Shown: one piece after another, positions 4,361 through 31,766 of the stretch
How the letters are laid out: the number at the start of each line of letters is the position of its first letter
Position numbering within the stretch: position 1 is the first letter of the stretch
NCBI GenBank assembly: GCA_030019415.1
Contig: JASEEX010000022.1
Coordinates: 1 to 34,256, forward strand
Source: Thermodesulfovibrionales bacterium
Lineage (GTDB): Bacteria > Nitrospirota > Thermodesulfovibrionia > Thermodesulfovibrionales > SM23-35
Reading direction: 5' to 3'
Length of the DNA: 34,256 bases
Position numbers and translations under genes: made by a program
The notes under the pieces: generated by a model
Database searches by the model: none
Seen by the model: the letters and a program-made list of their open reading frames with translations, nothing else
What the model was told of the DNA's origin: nothing

Positions 4361-4440
4361 AAGTAAGTTCAAAGTTTAAAGTGAAAAGTGAAAAGTTGAA
4401 AACATTTATAAAAACTCATAACTTTTAACTTTTAACTTTT
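4361..4440. repeat. Opposed heptad arrays between aroF and hisC
   Basis: Left array 4361-4402: six 7-bp units such as AAGTAAG and two TGAAAAG. Right array 4413-4440: AACTCAT then three AACTTTT. The two sides are roughly reverse complements and could fold into a hairpin. The right array covers the hisC stop codon. Confidence 0.9.
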
Positions 4441-9909: not shown

Positions 9910-9940
9910 CTCCCTTATGTCCTGTCCTCAACGCCTCTCT

Positions 9941-10030
9941 CGTCATTGCGAGGTCTCCGCCTTAGGCGGACGACTGAAGCAATCTCAAAACGAGATCCGA
10001 CCCCGTATTTAAATATGGGGTCGGAATGAC
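9941..10030. repeat. Mosaic intergenic repeat between yidC and mnmE
   Basis: Contains CGTCATTGCGAG and GAAGCAATCTC, the two ends of a palindromic repeat known from many bacterial genomes, but its centre is replaced by the triloop palindrome TCCGCC-TTA-GGCGGA (9956-9970). A second near-perfect 28-bp palindrome follows at 9997-10024 (left arm CCGACCCCGTATTT, one G-T pair), then GAATGAC. I see no gene in this gap. Confidence 0.8.
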
Positions 10031-10054: not shown

Positions 10055-11446
10055 ATGTTTCATGATGACACCATCGCTGCGATATCCACCCCCTTTGGGG
10101 AAGGAGGGATAGGTATTGTCAGATTAAGCGGGAGAGATTCTATAAAGATTGTAGAAAAAATTTTCACTTCACCCAAAAATAAATCCCTTAAGGATTTGGG
10201 TTCCAACAGGGTAATCTACGGCCATATAAAAGACCCCTTAACAGGTGAAGAGATTGACGAAGTGCTTGTTACGGTTATGCGATCTCCTTATACTTACACA
10301 AGAGAGGATGTTGTTGAGATAAACTGCCACGGAGGTATGGTCACCCTGAGAAAGACCCTCGAGTTAGTCCTTAAAGAAGGTGCAAGGCTTGCAGAGCCAG
10401 GGGAGTTTACTAAGAGGGCATTTATAAATGGAAGGATAGATCTCAGCCAGGCAGAGGCAGTACTCGATCTTATAAGGTCTAAGACCGATGAAAGCAGAAG
10501 GATTGCGATTGAGCAGCTTCAGGGCGGTCTCTCTGAAAAGATAACTGCACTGAGAGATAGGCTGAAAGAGCTCTGTGCCTATTTAGAGGCATATATAGAT
10601 TTCCCTGAGGATGATATAGAGATAGCCTCAAAAGAGGATATGTTAGAGTCAATGAAAGAGATTGGAACAGAACTCCAGAAACTCCTTAAGACCTATGATG
10701 AGGCAAGATTCTTCAGGGAAGGACTTTCAACAGCAATCGTTGGAAGACCAAATGTGGGTAAATCATCCCTTCTTAATGCACTCCTCAGAAAAGACAGGGC
10801 AATAGTGACAGAGCTTCCGGGTACGACGAGGGATGTTATTGAAGAGTATCTAAACATAGATGGTCTTCCCTTGAGGATTATGGATACAGCAGGGATAAGG
10901 AATGTACAAGATATTGCTGAGAAGGAAGGCGTAAAAAGGAGTCTTCAGAGCATTGAGAATGCTGACCTTGTGATTGCCATTTTTGATGGCAGCGAACATC
11001 TAAGTGATGAGGATTTTGAGGTTATGGAGAAGATAAAGGGTAAGAATGCAATTATCGTCATGAATAAATGCGACCTCCCATCTGTATTTGATAAAGACAT
11101 GTTCGCATCCTGCGTCTTGCATCATGCATCCTGCATCTTGCAAATCTCTGCTACCAGAGGTGATGGTCTTGAGGAACTTAAAGATAGAATATTCGAGTCA
11201 TGTCTGAAGGACTGGAAAGAAGGGAGGGATGGTGTTCTCGTTACAAATCTCAGACATAAAATTGCGATAGAAAATGCTCTGGCATCTCTCGAGAGGGCCA
11301 TATCCGGGTTCTTAGAGGATAAACCTCTCGAGATAATCGCCCTTGAGCTCAGGGATTCCCTCGACAGGCTGGGTGAGATTGTTGGAGCCGTAACAACAGA
11401 AGACATACTCGAGAATATATTTAAAAATTTCTGTATCGGGAAATAG
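10055..11446 (+). CDS. mnmE: tRNA uridine-5-carboxymethylaminomethyl modification GTPase MnmE (TrmE)
   Basis: Works with MnmG to modify U34 of certain tRNAs. N-terminal folate-binding domain (TIAAISTPFGEGGIGIVRLSG), central helical domain and an embedded G domain with GRPNVGKSSL (near 230), DTAG (near 277) and NKCD (near 337). It ends with the family's FCIGK, whose cysteine is catalytic. The G5 region ISATRGDG is preceded by about 13 extra residues (ASCVLHHASCILQ) encoded by five heptads of a GCATNNT array. This places a duplicated 7-residue peptide between G4 and G5. Length 463 is near the upper end. No convincing ribosome site precedes the ATG at 10055; an in-frame ATG lies three codons later. 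Confidence 0.96.
   Translation: MFHDDTIAAISTPFGEGGIGIVRLSGRDSIKIVEKIFTSPKNKSLKDLGSNRVIYGHIKDPLTGEEIDEVLVTVMRSPYTYTREDVVEINCHGGMVTLRKTLELVLKEGARLAEPGEFTKRAFINGRIDLSQAEAVLDLIRSKTDESRRIAIEQLQGGLSEKITALRDRLKELCAYLEAYIDFPEDDIEIASKEDMLESMKEIGTELQKLLKTYDEARFFREGLSTAIVGRPNVGKSSLLNALLRKDRAIVTELPGTTRDVIEEYLNIDGLPLRIMDTAGIRNVQDIAEKEGVKRSLQSIENADLVIAIFDGSEHLSDEDFEVMEKIKGKNAIIVMNKCDLPSVFDKDMFASCVLHHASCILQISATRGDGLEELKDRIFESCLKDWKEGRDGVLVTNLRHKIAIENALASLERAISGFLEDKPLEIIALELRDSLDRLGEIVGAVTTEDILENIFKNFCIGK
11105..11139. repeat. Heptad array inside mnmE (GCATNNT type)
   Basis: Five consecutive 7-bp units: GCATCCT, GCGTCTT, GCATCAT, GCATCCT, GCATCTT. They are translated as two copies of the 7-residue pattern ASCVLHH/ASCILQI. 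The same family appears at 31723-31787. Confidence 0.93.
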
Positions 11447-12655: not shown

Positions 12656-12785
12656 CACTTTTCAAATCACCAATAACCAAAAATCAATCCGCCTCAGGCG
12701 GACCAAATAAGCTTCAATAAACAATCACCAAACTCTGATTGTTTGATTATTATTTGGTTATTGTAATTTGGTAATTGGTTATTCC
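12656..12785. repeat. Opposed TTGGTTA-type heptad arrays with a TCCGCCTCAGGCGGA palindrome
   Basis: CCAATAA-type units on the left, the 15-bp triloop palindrome TCCGCC-TCA-GGCGGA at 12688-12702, then TTGGTTA-type units at 12744-12785 (for example TATTTGG, TAATTGG). Left and right sides are roughly reverse complements. This fills the gap between tRNA-Val and tRNA-Phe; no gene is seen here. Confidence 0.88.
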
Positions 12786-17355: not shown

Positions 17356-17430
17356 ATGACCAATAACCAAAATACAATAACCAAACAACTTAGAAATTGT
17401 TTGGTGTTTGGGTATTGATTATTGGTGGTT
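17356..17430. repeat. Symmetrical opposed heptad arrays in the dnaA-dnaN gap
   Basis: Five units on the left (for example ATGACCA and ATAACCA twice) and five on the right (ATTGTTT, GGTGTTT, GGGTATT, GATTATT, GGTGGTT) in reverse-complement orientation around a short spacer. Nearly the whole gap is one imperfect hairpin. Confidence 0.9.
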
Positions 17431-17449: not shown

Positions 17450-18565
17450 ATGAAACTCAATGTATCAAAGGATGAGATGCAGGAGAAGCTATCAAATATT
17501 CAGAATATAGTAGAGAAGAGGAATGCCATGCCTGTTTTAAGCCATTTTCTTCTTAATGCAGGCAAGAAAGGTTCATATATAGTTGCTACTGACTTAGAGA
17601 CTGCACTCAAAGAGCCAATCGAGGTAAGGGTTGAGGAGGAGGGAAGACTCTGCATACCTGCAAGAAAGCTTTTTGAGATAGTGCGGGAGATGGACGGGGA
17701 TCTATTATTAGAATCAGTCGATGAGCAATGGCTCAAGATTAGGGCCGGTGCGAGCGATTTTAGGGTTGCCTGTCTTTTGGCAAGTGAATTTCCTGCGTGG
17801 CCGGTGATGGAAGATGTCGAGGAAATAACCATTGATGCCACGGTATTGATGGAGATGATAGAAAAGACAATCTATTCCGCTGGAGAGAGTGATACCAGGT
17901 ATACACTTAATGGCCTTCTTTTTCATGCTCAGCCCGGGAATAAATCCCTCACCATTGTGGGGACAGACGGCCACAGGCTGGCATTAATAATTAAACAGAT
18001 GGATGGAGAAGTAAAAGATGAAAAAAGGCTAATAGTCCCTCGGAAGGCGGTCTCTGAGCTCAGGCGATTCCTCGACAGAGAAGCAGAGAAGACCAAAATT
18101 TCAATCGGGAAAAACCACTTGCTTTTCAGTGTAGGTTCCGCCTCAGGCGGAGTGCAGTTCCTGACGAGGCTTATAGAGGGAACATACCCTAATTATGAGA
18201 ATGTTATCCCTCAGGCAAATGAAAAGAAGGTATCCATAAGGAGGGATACCTTTACAAAGGTGCTGCGCAGGGTATCGGTAATGTCCAGGGAAAGGGCCAA
18301 TGCTGTTAGGTTTGACATCGGAGAAGATAGCCTTGTTGTCTCCTCATCGAACCCAGACATAGGCGAGGCAAGGGAAGAAGTTGCAATAGACTATAAAGGT
18401 GACAGACTTTCCATTGGTTTTAATGCGAGATATCTGATAGATGTTCTCGGGGTGGTGAGGTCAGAGAACGTCGTCCTTGAGCTTCAGGACCCATTGAGCC
18501 CTGTGCTCGTTAAAGGGGAGGGAGGGGAAGATTATAGGTGTGTGATCATGCCGATGAGGATATAA
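17450..18565 (+). CDS. dnaN: DNA polymerase III sliding clamp (beta subunit)
   Basis: Forms the ring that tethers the replicative polymerase. The start at ATG 17450 (MKLNVSKDEM) follows AGGAGGGG; an in-frame ATG at 17408 lies in the repeat hairpin and is unlikely. The 371 residues form three similar domains. Recognisable stretches are NAMPVLSHFLL, YTLNGLLF, GTDGHRLALI, the TRLIEGTYPNYENVIP segment and the C-terminal DYRCVIMPMRI. Residues 230-234 are SASGG, encoded exactly by one 15-bp TCCGCCTCAGGCGGA element. They sit at the turn before the strand leading to LTRLIEG, where the Escherichia clamp has a tight turn. The clamp is almost certainly functional. Confidence 0.97.
   Translation: MKLNVSKDEMQEKLSNIQNIVEKRNAMPVLSHFLLNAGKKGSYIVATDLETALKEPIEVRVEEEGRLCIPARKLFEIVREMDGDLLLESVDEQWLKIRAGASDFRVACLLASEFPAWPVMEDVEEITIDATVLMEMIEKTIYSAGESDTRYTLNGLLFHAQPGNKSLTIVGTDGHRLALIIKQMDGEVKDEKRLIVPRKAVSELRRFLDREAEKTKISIGKNHLLFSVGSASGGVQFLTRLIEGTYPNYENVIPQANEKKVSIRRDTFTKVLRRVSVMSRERANAVRFDIGEDSLVVSSSNPDIGEAREEVAIDYKGDRLSIGFNARYLIDVLGVVRSENVVLELQDPLSPVLVKGEGGEDYRCVIMPMRI
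18137..18151. repeat. 15-bp palindromic element inside dnaN
   Basis: TCCGCC-TCA-GGCGGA, identical to the intergenic copies at 12688-12702 and 29938-29952 and one base different from 9956-9970. It occupies exactly five codons (Ser-Ala-Ser-Gly-Gly) of the sliding-clamp gene. Confidence 0.92.
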
Positions 18566-18604: not shown

Positions 18605-21434
<2,830 letters not shown>

Positions 21435-22606: not shown

Positions 22607-23785
22607 TCACTTGTTACTGCTGAAGCATGTCTCCTCTATAGTCTCGATTAAATGTAATACTGGCGTATCTTTGGCCCCTCTGCTTAGCTGCATCATGCAC
22701 CCAGGACAGGCAGTAATGATTGTCTCTGCCCCTGTCTTTTTAAGGTCCTTGATGCGCTTTTCGAGTAGTCCCTCTGAGATTTCTCGATAGGATAAGCTGA
22801 AAATGCCTCCGAAGCCGCAGCATCTCTGCTCTTCAGTCTCGATTAAGTCAATGCCGATGTTTTTAATAATCTCTCTCGGCTCTCTTTTTACACCTAACCC
22901 ATAACTGAGGTGGCATGGGTCATGGTAAGTTGCACTTTTAAAGTGAGAAGTGAGAAGTGAGAAGTGAGAGGTACTTAATTTATCAATAAGAAAACTTGAT
23001 ATGTCCATCGCCCTTTCCAGGCCTTTACCTATAAGCTTTGGGTACTCTACTTTCAGAGCGTATGTACATGTCGGACAGAGACTCAGTATCGCCTCAACAT
23101 TCAGTCTGCTGAATATTCCGAGATTCTTTTTTGCAAGTTCTATAGCTTTTTCTTCAAGACCGAGAGTCCTTAAGGGTACTCCACAGCAGACCTCACCTGC
23201 TGGAAGGATTACTTCATAATCGAGTCTCTGAAGGATGTTGATGAGGGTTCTCCCTAAATGTGGATAAAGGAAATTAACAGTACACCCTGTGAAGACCGCA
23301 ACTCTGCCTTTCTTTTTCGAAATCGTAAATACCCGACCTTCATTTTTTAGGGATACTTCAGGCAGTTCGGGGAGAAAGTGGAGGGTTCCTTTTTTCAATA
23401 GATGTGGGAGTATGTACTGGGCCATTCTGAGGAGCCTGAAACTCAGCTCCGGCCTTTTAGTATAAAATTTCGTAAGAAAACGGAGAGATCGTCTCTTCGC
23501 GTCTGACCTTCTGAGAAGGCTTCTACCGTGGTATATAACCTCCTGTATATCAACTCCTGGCGGACATAACCCTGAGCAGGCACCACACAATATACAGCTA
23601 AATATGCGGTCATTTAAGATTCTTGATGGCTTGAGCAGGCCCTCAGAGAGCCCCCAGAGGAGTACAAGCCTTCCCCTCGCACCCATCGCCTCTGTTTTAT
23701 CCTCATCGTAAGTCGGACAAAAGGCCTTGCAGCTTCCGCAGCGTACACATTTTGAGAGCTCCCTCAGGTATCTTTCCTTCTCCAT
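22607..23785 (-). CDS. GlcF-like (Fe-S)-binding, cysteine-rich CCG-domain oxidoreductase subunit
   Basis: Two 4Fe-4S ferredoxin motifs lie at the N-terminus (CVRCGSCKAFCPTY and CILCGACSGLCPPG). Two CCG domains follow: TGCTVNF...EVCCGVPL...LCPTC and YHDPCHLSYG...QRCCGFGG...CPGCMMQL. This is the layout of glycolate oxidase subunit GlcF and related LutA/HdrD-type electron-transfer proteins. It should act in the cytosol or at the membrane face, passing electrons from a flavoprotein dehydrogenase to quinone or heterodisulfide-type acceptors. No GlcD partner is in the window. Residues about 271-283 (STSHFSLLTSHFK) are an insertion encoded by four AAGTGAG heptads just before the second CCG domain. 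The stop codon also lies in two heptad units (22606-22619). Confidence 0.88.
   Translation of the reverse strand: MEKERYLRELSKCVRCGSCKAFCPTYDEDKTEAMGARGRLVLLWGLSEGLLKPSRILNDRIFSCILCGACSGLCPPGVDIQEVIYHGRSLLRRSDAKRRSLRFLTKFYTKRPELSFRLLRMAQYILPHLLKKGTLHFLPELPEVSLKNEGRVFTISKKKGRVAVFTGCTVNFLYPHLGRTLINILQRLDYEVILPAGEVCCGVPLRTLGLEEKAIELAKKNLGIFSRLNVEAILSLCPTCTYALKVEYPKLIGKGLERAMDISSFLIDKLSTSHFSLLTSHFKSATYHDPCHLSYGLGVKREPREIIKNIGIDLIETEEQRCCGFGGIFSLSYREISEGLLEKRIKDLKKTGAETIITACPGCMMQLSRGAKDTPVLHLIETIEETCFSSNK
22941..22968. repeat. Heptad array inside the GlcF-like gene
   Basis: Four perfect tandem copies of AAGTGAG (phase AGTGAGA). On the coding strand they yield the 7-residue repeat TSHFSLL/TSHFK. 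Confidence 0.95.
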
Positions 23786-29867: not shown

Positions 29868-29980
29868 AATGACCAATCACCAAATTCCAACTTCCAAACA
29901 GTTTGTTTATTGATGCTTGGTTATTGAGATTTATTTGTCCGCCTCAGGCGGATGGGGATTTGGTTATTGGGATTTATCGA
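29868..29980. repeat. Composite repeat: opposed TTGGTTA-type heptads around a 15-bp palindrome
   Basis: Units AATGACC, AATCACC, AAATTCC, AACTTCC run in unbroken 7-bp phase into TTGTTTA, TTGATGC, TTGGTTA, TTGAGAT, TTATTTG. The palindrome TCCGCCTCAGGCGGA follows (29938-29952), then four more units (TGGGGAT, TTGGTTA, TTGGGAT, TTATCGA) in the same register. It ends four bases before the next start codon. Confidence 0.92.
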
Positions 29981-30659: not shown

Positions 30660-31766
30660 ATAATCATTAATTCTTCCGGGCTCAAACCCGTCAGTGTCGA
30701 GGACATTGTTGACAAACCTAAAAATGAGTCTCCTCTGTTCAGGGGTAACTTCAGGATAAAAAACAGGGTTTGCCACTACAGCACCCCTAAAGGCATAAAA
30801 GGGGGCAACGACGTTATAGATTTCATCATCGCCTGTAAGAGCTACATAGCTTTCATAAAAAAGTCTCAATCCATCGAGGTAGGGCCCCTCTATAGAGAAG
30901 TGATGTTTTATTGAAAAGAATACATAGTTGATTGTTAGAGCCGTTACATCATCTGCAGGCTCACCCCACGGGCCGCGGCTCCTGTCAAGGAGGACAAAAT
31001 CTATTTCAGTATTCAGGGGGTTTCCAGAAGGGGGATGTAATCCCCCTTCTGCTTTAAACCATATATTACCCGGATGGAAATCTCCATGTATCTGTGATAG
31101 CCTCTTGTATTTTGGTTTCAGCCTTGCGTTCCAGTCTACTGATTTCTTAACGATCTCTGCCATCTCATCATATGTAAGGGTGCCGTCAGGATATGAATCA
31201 AAGACACCCATAAGACATTCGCCATGGCCTATAGTGTCTCTGAGCTTTCTCCAGTAAAGGGTCTTTGAATCCTTCTTGAGAGAGTGTATTTCAGCAAGAT
31301 ATGAGGTCATCGCCTTTATCTTCTTTATATCCTTCTCATCGAGGGAGCCCTTTTTAGAGAATTCAGTAAGGTCATTAAAATAGTTCTCGCCTTCTGCCTT
31401 TTCCATGAGCAGGAAATAATCGACTCCTCCGCCGGTGGATTTCATCGTGCCATTCTCTTTGATTGTTATGACATCGATGGCCTTTATGTGTCTGGGGAGT
31501 TTTCCGTAGGTCTCGTTTGCCAGAAGAAATACTGCTGCTCTATCAGATGGATAGTCATGTCCCAGGCCTTCTGGTGAAAGATCTTTCAGGACATAGGATC
31601 TTCTGCCTTCTTCTGTCTCGATTGTCAGGAGAAAGCCTGTTCCATGAACACCAGCCCCGAGCCTTTCAAACTCCAAGAGCCTGACAGAAGGCCCAAAGAC
31701 CTCCCTGAGATATGCTTCTAACGCATGATGCCTGATGCCTGATTCATGATACATGATATTTTTCAC
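30651..31766 (-). CDS. Phosphotransferase of the aminoglycoside phosphotransferase (APH/choline kinase) superfamily
   Basis: Protein-kinase-like fold. An ATP-binding N-lobe (GAGVHGTGFLLTIETEEG and YVLKDLSPEG) is followed by the catalytic loop SQIHGDFHPGNIWF and the metal-binding DRSRGPWGEPADDV, typical of APH enzymes; the substrate is not predictable. Between these motifs, the segment AEGGLHPPSGNPLNTEI contains nine residues encoded by a perfect 27-bp palindrome (31025-31051) not expected in the family. The N-terminus is also repeat-derived: the only usable starts, GTG 31766 or ATG 31754, lie in GCATGAT-type heptads, giving residues such as YHESGIRHHA. It is convergent with the exonuclease gene. 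Confidence 0.8.
   Translation of the reverse strand: MKNIMYHESGIRHHALEAYLREVFGPSVRLLEFERLGAGVHGTGFLLTIETEEGRRSYVLKDLSPEGLGHDYPSDRAAVFLLANETYGKLPRHIKAIDVITIKENGTMKSTGGGVDYFLLMEKAEGENYFNDLTEFSKKGSLDEKDIKKIKAMTSYLAEIHSLKKDSKTLYWRKLRDTIGHGECLMGVFDSYPDGTLTYDEMAEIVKKSVDWNARLKPKYKRLSQIHGDFHPGNIWFKAEGGLHPPSGNPLNTEIDFVLLDRSRGPWGEPADDVTALTINYVFFSIKHHFSIEGPYLDGLRLFYESYVALTGDDEIYNVVAPFYAFRGAVVANPVFYPEVTPEQRRLIFRFVNNVLDTDGFEPGRINDYLR
31025..31051. repeat. 27-bp triloop palindrome inside the phosphotransferase gene
   Basis: Perfect 12-bp arms (CAGAAGGGGGAT and its complement) around GTA. Total length is nine codons, so the frame is kept. It shares the 12-3-12 design with 21808-21834. Confidence 0.92.

Follow-up and report, generated by a model that had tools for sequence, protein, structure and literature searches.

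The small dispersed repeats (SDRs) of cyanobacteria that Elhai et al. described in 2008 (cited in PMC3116915) are reportedly very small, apparently mobile and found together with tandem heptamer repeats. The Rickettsia palindromic elements (RPEs) are palindromic repeats of approximately 150 bp that lie in frame in many unrelated genes (reviewed in PMC10969869). Among the REPs tagged with GTAG or CGTC, some are intragenic and lie in genes for DNA synthesis and repair, including uvrA and the gene for DNA polymerase I (Di Nocera et al. 2013, PMC3733652). In yeast mitochondria, the GC clusters are GC-rich mobile palindromes whose mechanism is unsettled; their stems are more conserved than synonymous sites, base changes adjoin the insertions and AG serves as the target nucleotides (PMC4478555).

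The locus described here lies in a 34,256-nucleotide stretch of a Thermodesulfovibrionales genome (the window), where the first-pass annotation reported that the sliding clamp gene carries an exact 15 bp palindrome in frame, identical to two intergenic copies. Both parts of this observation are confirmed (table 1), and the two identical copies do lie between open reading frames. The palindrome consists of two 7 bp arms around a 1 nt centre, and the unpaired centre base is the sole difference between the fourth window copy and the other three. When up to two mismatches were allowed on both strands, the window yielded nine matches, while shuffles predict 0.04. Folded as RNA, all four copies form a hairpin of six or seven pairs, with three unpaired bases in the loop compared with one in the DNA word. 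The window also contains tandem heptanucleotide repeats with a 7 nt period and 3–5 copies (1522-1550, 2203-2232, 4378-4440, 11105-11142, 21001-21035, 22941-22969 and 31723-31757), which resemble the STRRs of cyanobacteria.

Table 1. Palindrome copies in the window and the clamp gene that hosts one of them.
Feature	Position	Strand	Details
dnaN, DNA polymerase III beta sliding clamp, 371 aa	17450..18565	+	Pfam PF00712, PF02767, PF02768; solved clamps E 1e-68
Palindrome copy TCCGCCTCAGGCGGA	18137..18151	+	exact; phase 0, codons 230-234 (SASGG) of dnaN
Intergenic copy identical to TCCGCCTCAGGCGGA	12688..12702	+	in AATAACCAA-type repeat stretch
Intergenic copy identical to TCCGCCTCAGGCGGA	29938..29952	+	S41 peptidase gene and exonuclease-like gene on either side; in GGTTATTG-type repeat stretch
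Intergenic copy, T centre (TCCGCCTTAGGCGGA)	9956..9970	+	nested in GTCATTGCGAGG...GAAGCAATCTC repeat; yidC-like gene and mnmE gene on either side

The host protein matches Pfam beta domains 1–3 (E 5e-26 to 9e-33), and its true start is the ATG at 17450 rather than the TTG at 17408 given by the mechanical ORF list. Its nearest named relatives come from Nitrospirota MAGs labelled Thermodesulfovibrionales, Nitrospirae or Nitrospira sp. The insert codons TCC GCC TCA GGC GGA encode SASGG, and a codon alignment places GGT TCC GCC TCA GGC GGA GTG of the window against GGC GAT GTG in one relative (G006) and GGG GAT GTG in another (G029). At the protein level, the turn S-I-G-D-V-Q-F of G006 (AGT ATT GGC GAT GTG CAG TTT) corresponds to S-V-G-SASGG-V-Q-F, so that the window clamp has four more residues than the family clamps and the D is replaced. 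One adjustment is needed: SASGG spans five codons, but the net gain is four residues rather than five, one codon (GAT/GAC in several relatives) having been exchanged. Family clamps form a tight beta-turn at this spot, with three exceptions. G012 has a longer insert (GSFTSGGSSAQPKADGG) holding further palindrome-like words, and in G004 and G016 the loop is enlarged without a palindrome. Apart from the missing SASGG, the alignment of the family clamps is continuous; solved clamps lack SASGG as well, showing a tight turn and a four-residue gap across the stretch. SASGG-like residues written in unrelated codons were not found at this site in distant DnaN proteins. An AlphaFold2 model of the window clamp, with a mean pLDDT of 90.5, places SASGG at the tip of a beta-hairpin between strands 223-228 and 235-240, which bears out the expected beta-turn placement, where extra residues could be tolerated. 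Because G004 pairs with the window's genome (G000) in a DnaN tree built with FastTree, although with a low support of 0.74, the two may possibly share an older enlargement of this loop.

Clamps of relatives carry the word, or remnants of it, in phase 0 at other places: at site B in G015 (TCCGCCTCAGGCGGG) and G001 (TCCGCATCAGGCGGG), at site C in G004 (TCCGTCTCGGGTGGA), at site D in G012 (TCCGCCTCAGGCGGC), which also has an insert at site A, and in G003 at D (TCCTCCTCAGGCGGA), E (TCTTCCTCAGGTGGA), F (CCCGCCTCAGGCAGA) and, more weakly, G (ACTGCCTTAAGCGGA). On the modelled window clamp, each of the seven sites, A–G, lies in a loop that separates elements of secondary structure. At site C, a clade of four genomes (G008, G017, G005 and G014) has a common four-residue gain that reads SSSGG, SATDG or TTAEG; judging from the sequences, this is best read as a single old insertion that has since decayed. 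The DnaN of G003 (G003:C116:44773-46020, L035), with 416 codons and at least four separate loop insertions, is the most decorated clamp among those compared.

G000 is a fragmented 1.94 Mb MAG (166 contigs; Thermodesulfovibrionales, Nitrospirota), in which we analysed the loci around each copy. It contains 39 exact copies of TCCGCCTNAGGCGGA and none of the reversed-pattern control; with up to two mismatches allowed, the counts are 67 and 3. In the 269 kb formed by the window and the stretches picked for containing copies, every other 7 bp hairpin arm is present at most four times. Copy number is patchy among relatives, with 0–13 per genome in the rest of the window's family and 0–11 in family f2, which belongs to the same order; most other families of this order have none, and genomes elsewhere in the Nitrospirota mostly have none either. 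One genome from another family of the phylum, outside the order (G131, family f29), holds 24 exact copies in 1.6 Mb, possibly through transfer or independent expansion. The exact word is also present in 77 stretches of IMG/VR viral contigs (loci L223-L299); in L294, from IMGVR_UViG_3300047586_000088, three copies lie inside 70 bp. In the full text of the papers searched, the 15-mer had no match, which is weak evidence of novelty.

Approximately 25 of the 39 G000 copies lie in ORFs or at ORF ends, and most host ORFs have Pfam support. The SASGG reading accounts for 16 (RuvB, DnaN, the C-terminal end of an FAD/FeS oxidoreductase, MurE, MurD, AspS, PolA twice, UvrA, DnaG twice, LeuS, the C-terminal end of NusB, the L146 ORF twice and a class III aminotransferase), PPxAD for five (DapF, LpxK, TrpE, a NuoG-like protein and one unassigned) and RLRR for four (PurL, CarA, NadA and Gmk). 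Random phase and orientation over the readable options would give SASGG in about one-fifth of cases (phase 0 in the other orientation produces a TGA stop), so the 16 of 25 observed compare with about 5 (20%) expected (P = 2e-6). Five host genes act in replication or repair (dnaN, dnaG, polA, uvrA and ruvB). The suggestion of insertion into the most constrained genes is right in that the same word is in frame in many essential genes and in other DnaN loops of relatives, but the pattern is better read as landing in or between genes and surviving where frame and loop permit. Tandem heptamers, like the palindrome, enter essential proteins of G000 in frame: ATTCGAA-type units, translated as a repeated IRNSKFE, lie inside the conserved enzymes MurE, MurD, UvrA and LeuS (L117, L122 and L144).

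Comparison with relatives shows what the palindrome replaces. At each of the nine unambiguous SASGG sites of G000 (DnaN, DnaG 1 and 2, UvrA, LeuS, PolA 1 and 2, MurE and AspS), one codon has become five, a gain of 12 bp. The cleanest case is MurE, where CCC TCC CTA ACC CTC CCC is matched by CCA TCC CTA TCC GCC TCA GGC GGA CTC CCC. The codon at the empty site in relatives, bracketed here, is AAA[AAC]GGG in AspS, [GAT] and [AGG/AAA] in DnaG, [AAT] in UvrA, [GAT] in LeuS, [GAT] and [AAA] in PolA and [ACC] in MurE. Empty sites at the DNA or codon level were also seen for GatB, a GspK-like protein and others, and NuoG (PPKAD reading) gains four residues too. Of the comparisons starting from genus g2, three gave +9, three besides AspS gave +12 and one gave +18; overall, 15 of the 22 comparable events are +12. 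At the heptamer-region sites in LpxK, TrpE, MurD, PurL and a BioA-like protein (CarA and DapF being doubtful), the relatives are too variable for the gain due to the palindrome to be measured. Where the host is a heptamer tandem repeat, the palindrome likewise takes the place of the 3 nt spacer, TTGC TCT TTGC becoming TTGC [15] TTGC. At some intergenic places a relative holds a different hairpin at the same spot (TCCCGAAAGAGTTCGGGA or GCCCGAAGGGC), and GatB of G001 has one hairpin within another. A larger repeat (GTCATTGCGAG...GCAATCTC) encloses the palindrome at window positions 9940-9990 and in L133, L140 and L157; for L133 and L140, relatives carry a different hairpin at its spot.

Several other accounts of the junctions were rejected. 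Target duplication is not a general rule, as most coding junctions show none, and CCT[15]CCT is suggested at only one of the compared sites. Of the two features of a MITE, terminal repeats of a resident transposon and a constant target duplication, the comparison addressed the second and showed no constant duplication. Direct repeats of 3, 4 or 11 nt flank 12 of the 39 copies, where about two are expected, and several of them look like pre-existing heptamer repeats. A plain 12 bp insertion into a Ser or Gly codon (TCC, TCA or GGA) is unlikely, given that relatives mostly have Asn, Asp, Lys, Thr or Arg. Nor is the 15-mer enclosed in a longer element: the flanks are unrelated, the palindrome stops at 15 bp (extending further in only two of 39 copies), and flank composition over 39 + 27 copies is nearly random except for A at −1 (24 of 39).

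Movement by a RAYT (Y1 tyrosine) transposase, as a REP/REPIN-type element, is unlikely. The repeat is palindromic and dispersed, genes for replication and repair are known to host intragenic REPs (PMC3733652), and G000 has seven Y1_Tnp matches, the counts of which correlate weakly with those of the element over 61 genomes (rho 0.39). However, the correlation is not significant within the family, Y1_Tnp is missing from element-bearing G003 and G043, and 32 genomes with Y1_Tnp lack the element. In the flanking sequence available, the seven G000 genes have no 15-mer closer than about 1 kb; the GTAG/CGTC tag is absent and the flanks carry little information.

Some copies are common to different genera: those in AspS (G000/G001), UvrA (G000/G019), DnaG-1 and the L146 ORF (both G000/G012), at L120:3884, L122:3723, L124:2365 and L146:3396 and their orthologues in G001, G019 and G012. 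The shared 15-mers are identical, with 20 of 20 third positions kept versus 54% in the flanks of three of the four pairs (P ~4e-6, treating the 20 positions as independent); two of the sites were chosen via exact copies in both genomes, and the other two alone give P ~0.002. The sharing patterns clash with each other, and they also disagree with the DnaN tree. Such copies could stem from parallel insertions into one and the same codon, from homogenisation or from selection that acts on the word. A word maintained in this way, with 39 exact copies among the 67 within two mismatches, might instead be a signal for DNA uptake or a motif bound by protein, its copies having built up through point mutation, together with selection or biased uptake, without insertion. 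We regard this as slightly less probable still than a RAYT-driven element. Length gains of 9–21 bp at comparable coding sites, as the alignments have them, refute point mutation as the origin of the word; relatives lack a near-match at most sites, and copies decay in several lineages. The word may, however, have gained a function after insertion. It is very improbable that SASGG is an adaptive clamp loop unrelated to the intergenic palindromes: the protein is essential, SASGG lies in one of its loops and the frame is preserved, but SASGG is found at this DnaN spot in this genome only, and the same DNA word, synonymous positions included, recurs in unrelated genes and between genes, which refutes such an origin. 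Fragmentation of the MAG into 166 contigs might raise the suspicion of an assembly or binning artefact, but this is extremely improbable: the word and its in-frame sites recur in independent assemblies from different projects, and the insertions lie between conserved flanks with the frame kept.

We conclude that the 15-mer probably belongs to a very small dispersed palindromic repeat that is, or recently was, mobile in several Thermodesulfovibrionales lineages. Strong evidence supports insertion and a subsequent filter of reading frame and loop, and the insertion first proposed for dnaN is largely supported because the relatives' sites are empty and the same word is in frame in other essential genes. 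Copies would land irrespective of genes, and selection would purge those that break the frame, create a stop (the TGA of phase 0 in the other orientation) or disturb the folded core. SASGG would persist because it forms a small, polar, flexible loop, and after fixation the DNA word would decay while the loop stays, as the SSSGG, SATDG and TTAEG readings of one clade suggest. The exchange of few target bases for a hairpin, the hairpin swaps and the nesting point to copying or annealing of single-stranded DNA; template switching or single-strand annealing on the hairpin could replace 3–6 bp of target. We tentatively suggest that a copying process of this kind, rather than a classical transposase, may move the 15-mer; in the genomes compared, no mobilizing enzyme was identified and no transposition event was observed. 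These negative results count against the dispersed-repeat explanation, as do the lack of a consistent target duplication, the near-strict +12, which is odd under random insertion plus selection, and the perfect shared copies amid diverged flanks, which call for homogenisation, for parallel insertion or for selection that acts on the word.

It is also conceivable, if a little more speculative, that the 15 bp hairpin is itself mobile via an undescribed process that swaps 3 bp of target for the 15-mer and so turns one residue into SASGG. If this were true, the repeat would be a ‘codon-to-loop’ converter, repeatedly remodelling loops in essential proteins of replication, repair and translation. 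The system offers a clear and countable case of repeat DNA becoming protein, with one word, many essential hosts, empty sites and a series from perfect copy to decayed loop, and such a regular product (3 bp to 15 bp) opens the old question of the movement of very small repeats to testing. It also calls for caution, as protein loops in these bacteria may be remnants of repeats rather than functional features.

How, then, does this repeat relate to the known systems? As with RPEs, a palindrome lies in frame within otherwise intact conserved genes. Compared by size and placement, it differs in being 15 bp (five codons, net four residues) rather than about 150 bp, in having three readable frames with a strong SASGG bias and in belonging to a different phylum. 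With tagged REPs it shares small dispersed palindromes between and inside genes, here including dnaN, dnaG, polA, uvrA and ruvB. The unpaired GTAG/CGTC tag by the stem is, however, absent from the 15-mer copies, the repeat ends at 15 bp whereas REPs span 20–40 bp, its loop is a single unpaired base (three in the RNA fold), and no 15-mer lies near the seven Y1_Tnp genes, unlike RAYT-linked (GTAG) REPs, where the same repeat flanks the RAYT gene. The 15-mer therefore falls outside the REPs by tag, size and RAYT linkage, and outside the RPEs by size. Yeast GC clusters resemble it as GC-rich palindromes with well-conserved stems and base changes beside the insertions, but they are mitochondrial and target AG, whereas the 15-mer replaces a codon-size stretch. 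What it has in common with cyanobacterial SDRs, as these are reported, is a very small size, apparent mobility and co-occurrence with heptamers, although sequence and phylum differ; the identical short copies at unrelated loci, together with empty sites in relatives, are likewise SDR-like. In its workings the 15-mer resembles RPEs and intragenic REPs, and it can be placed in the loosely defined class of very small dispersed repeats.
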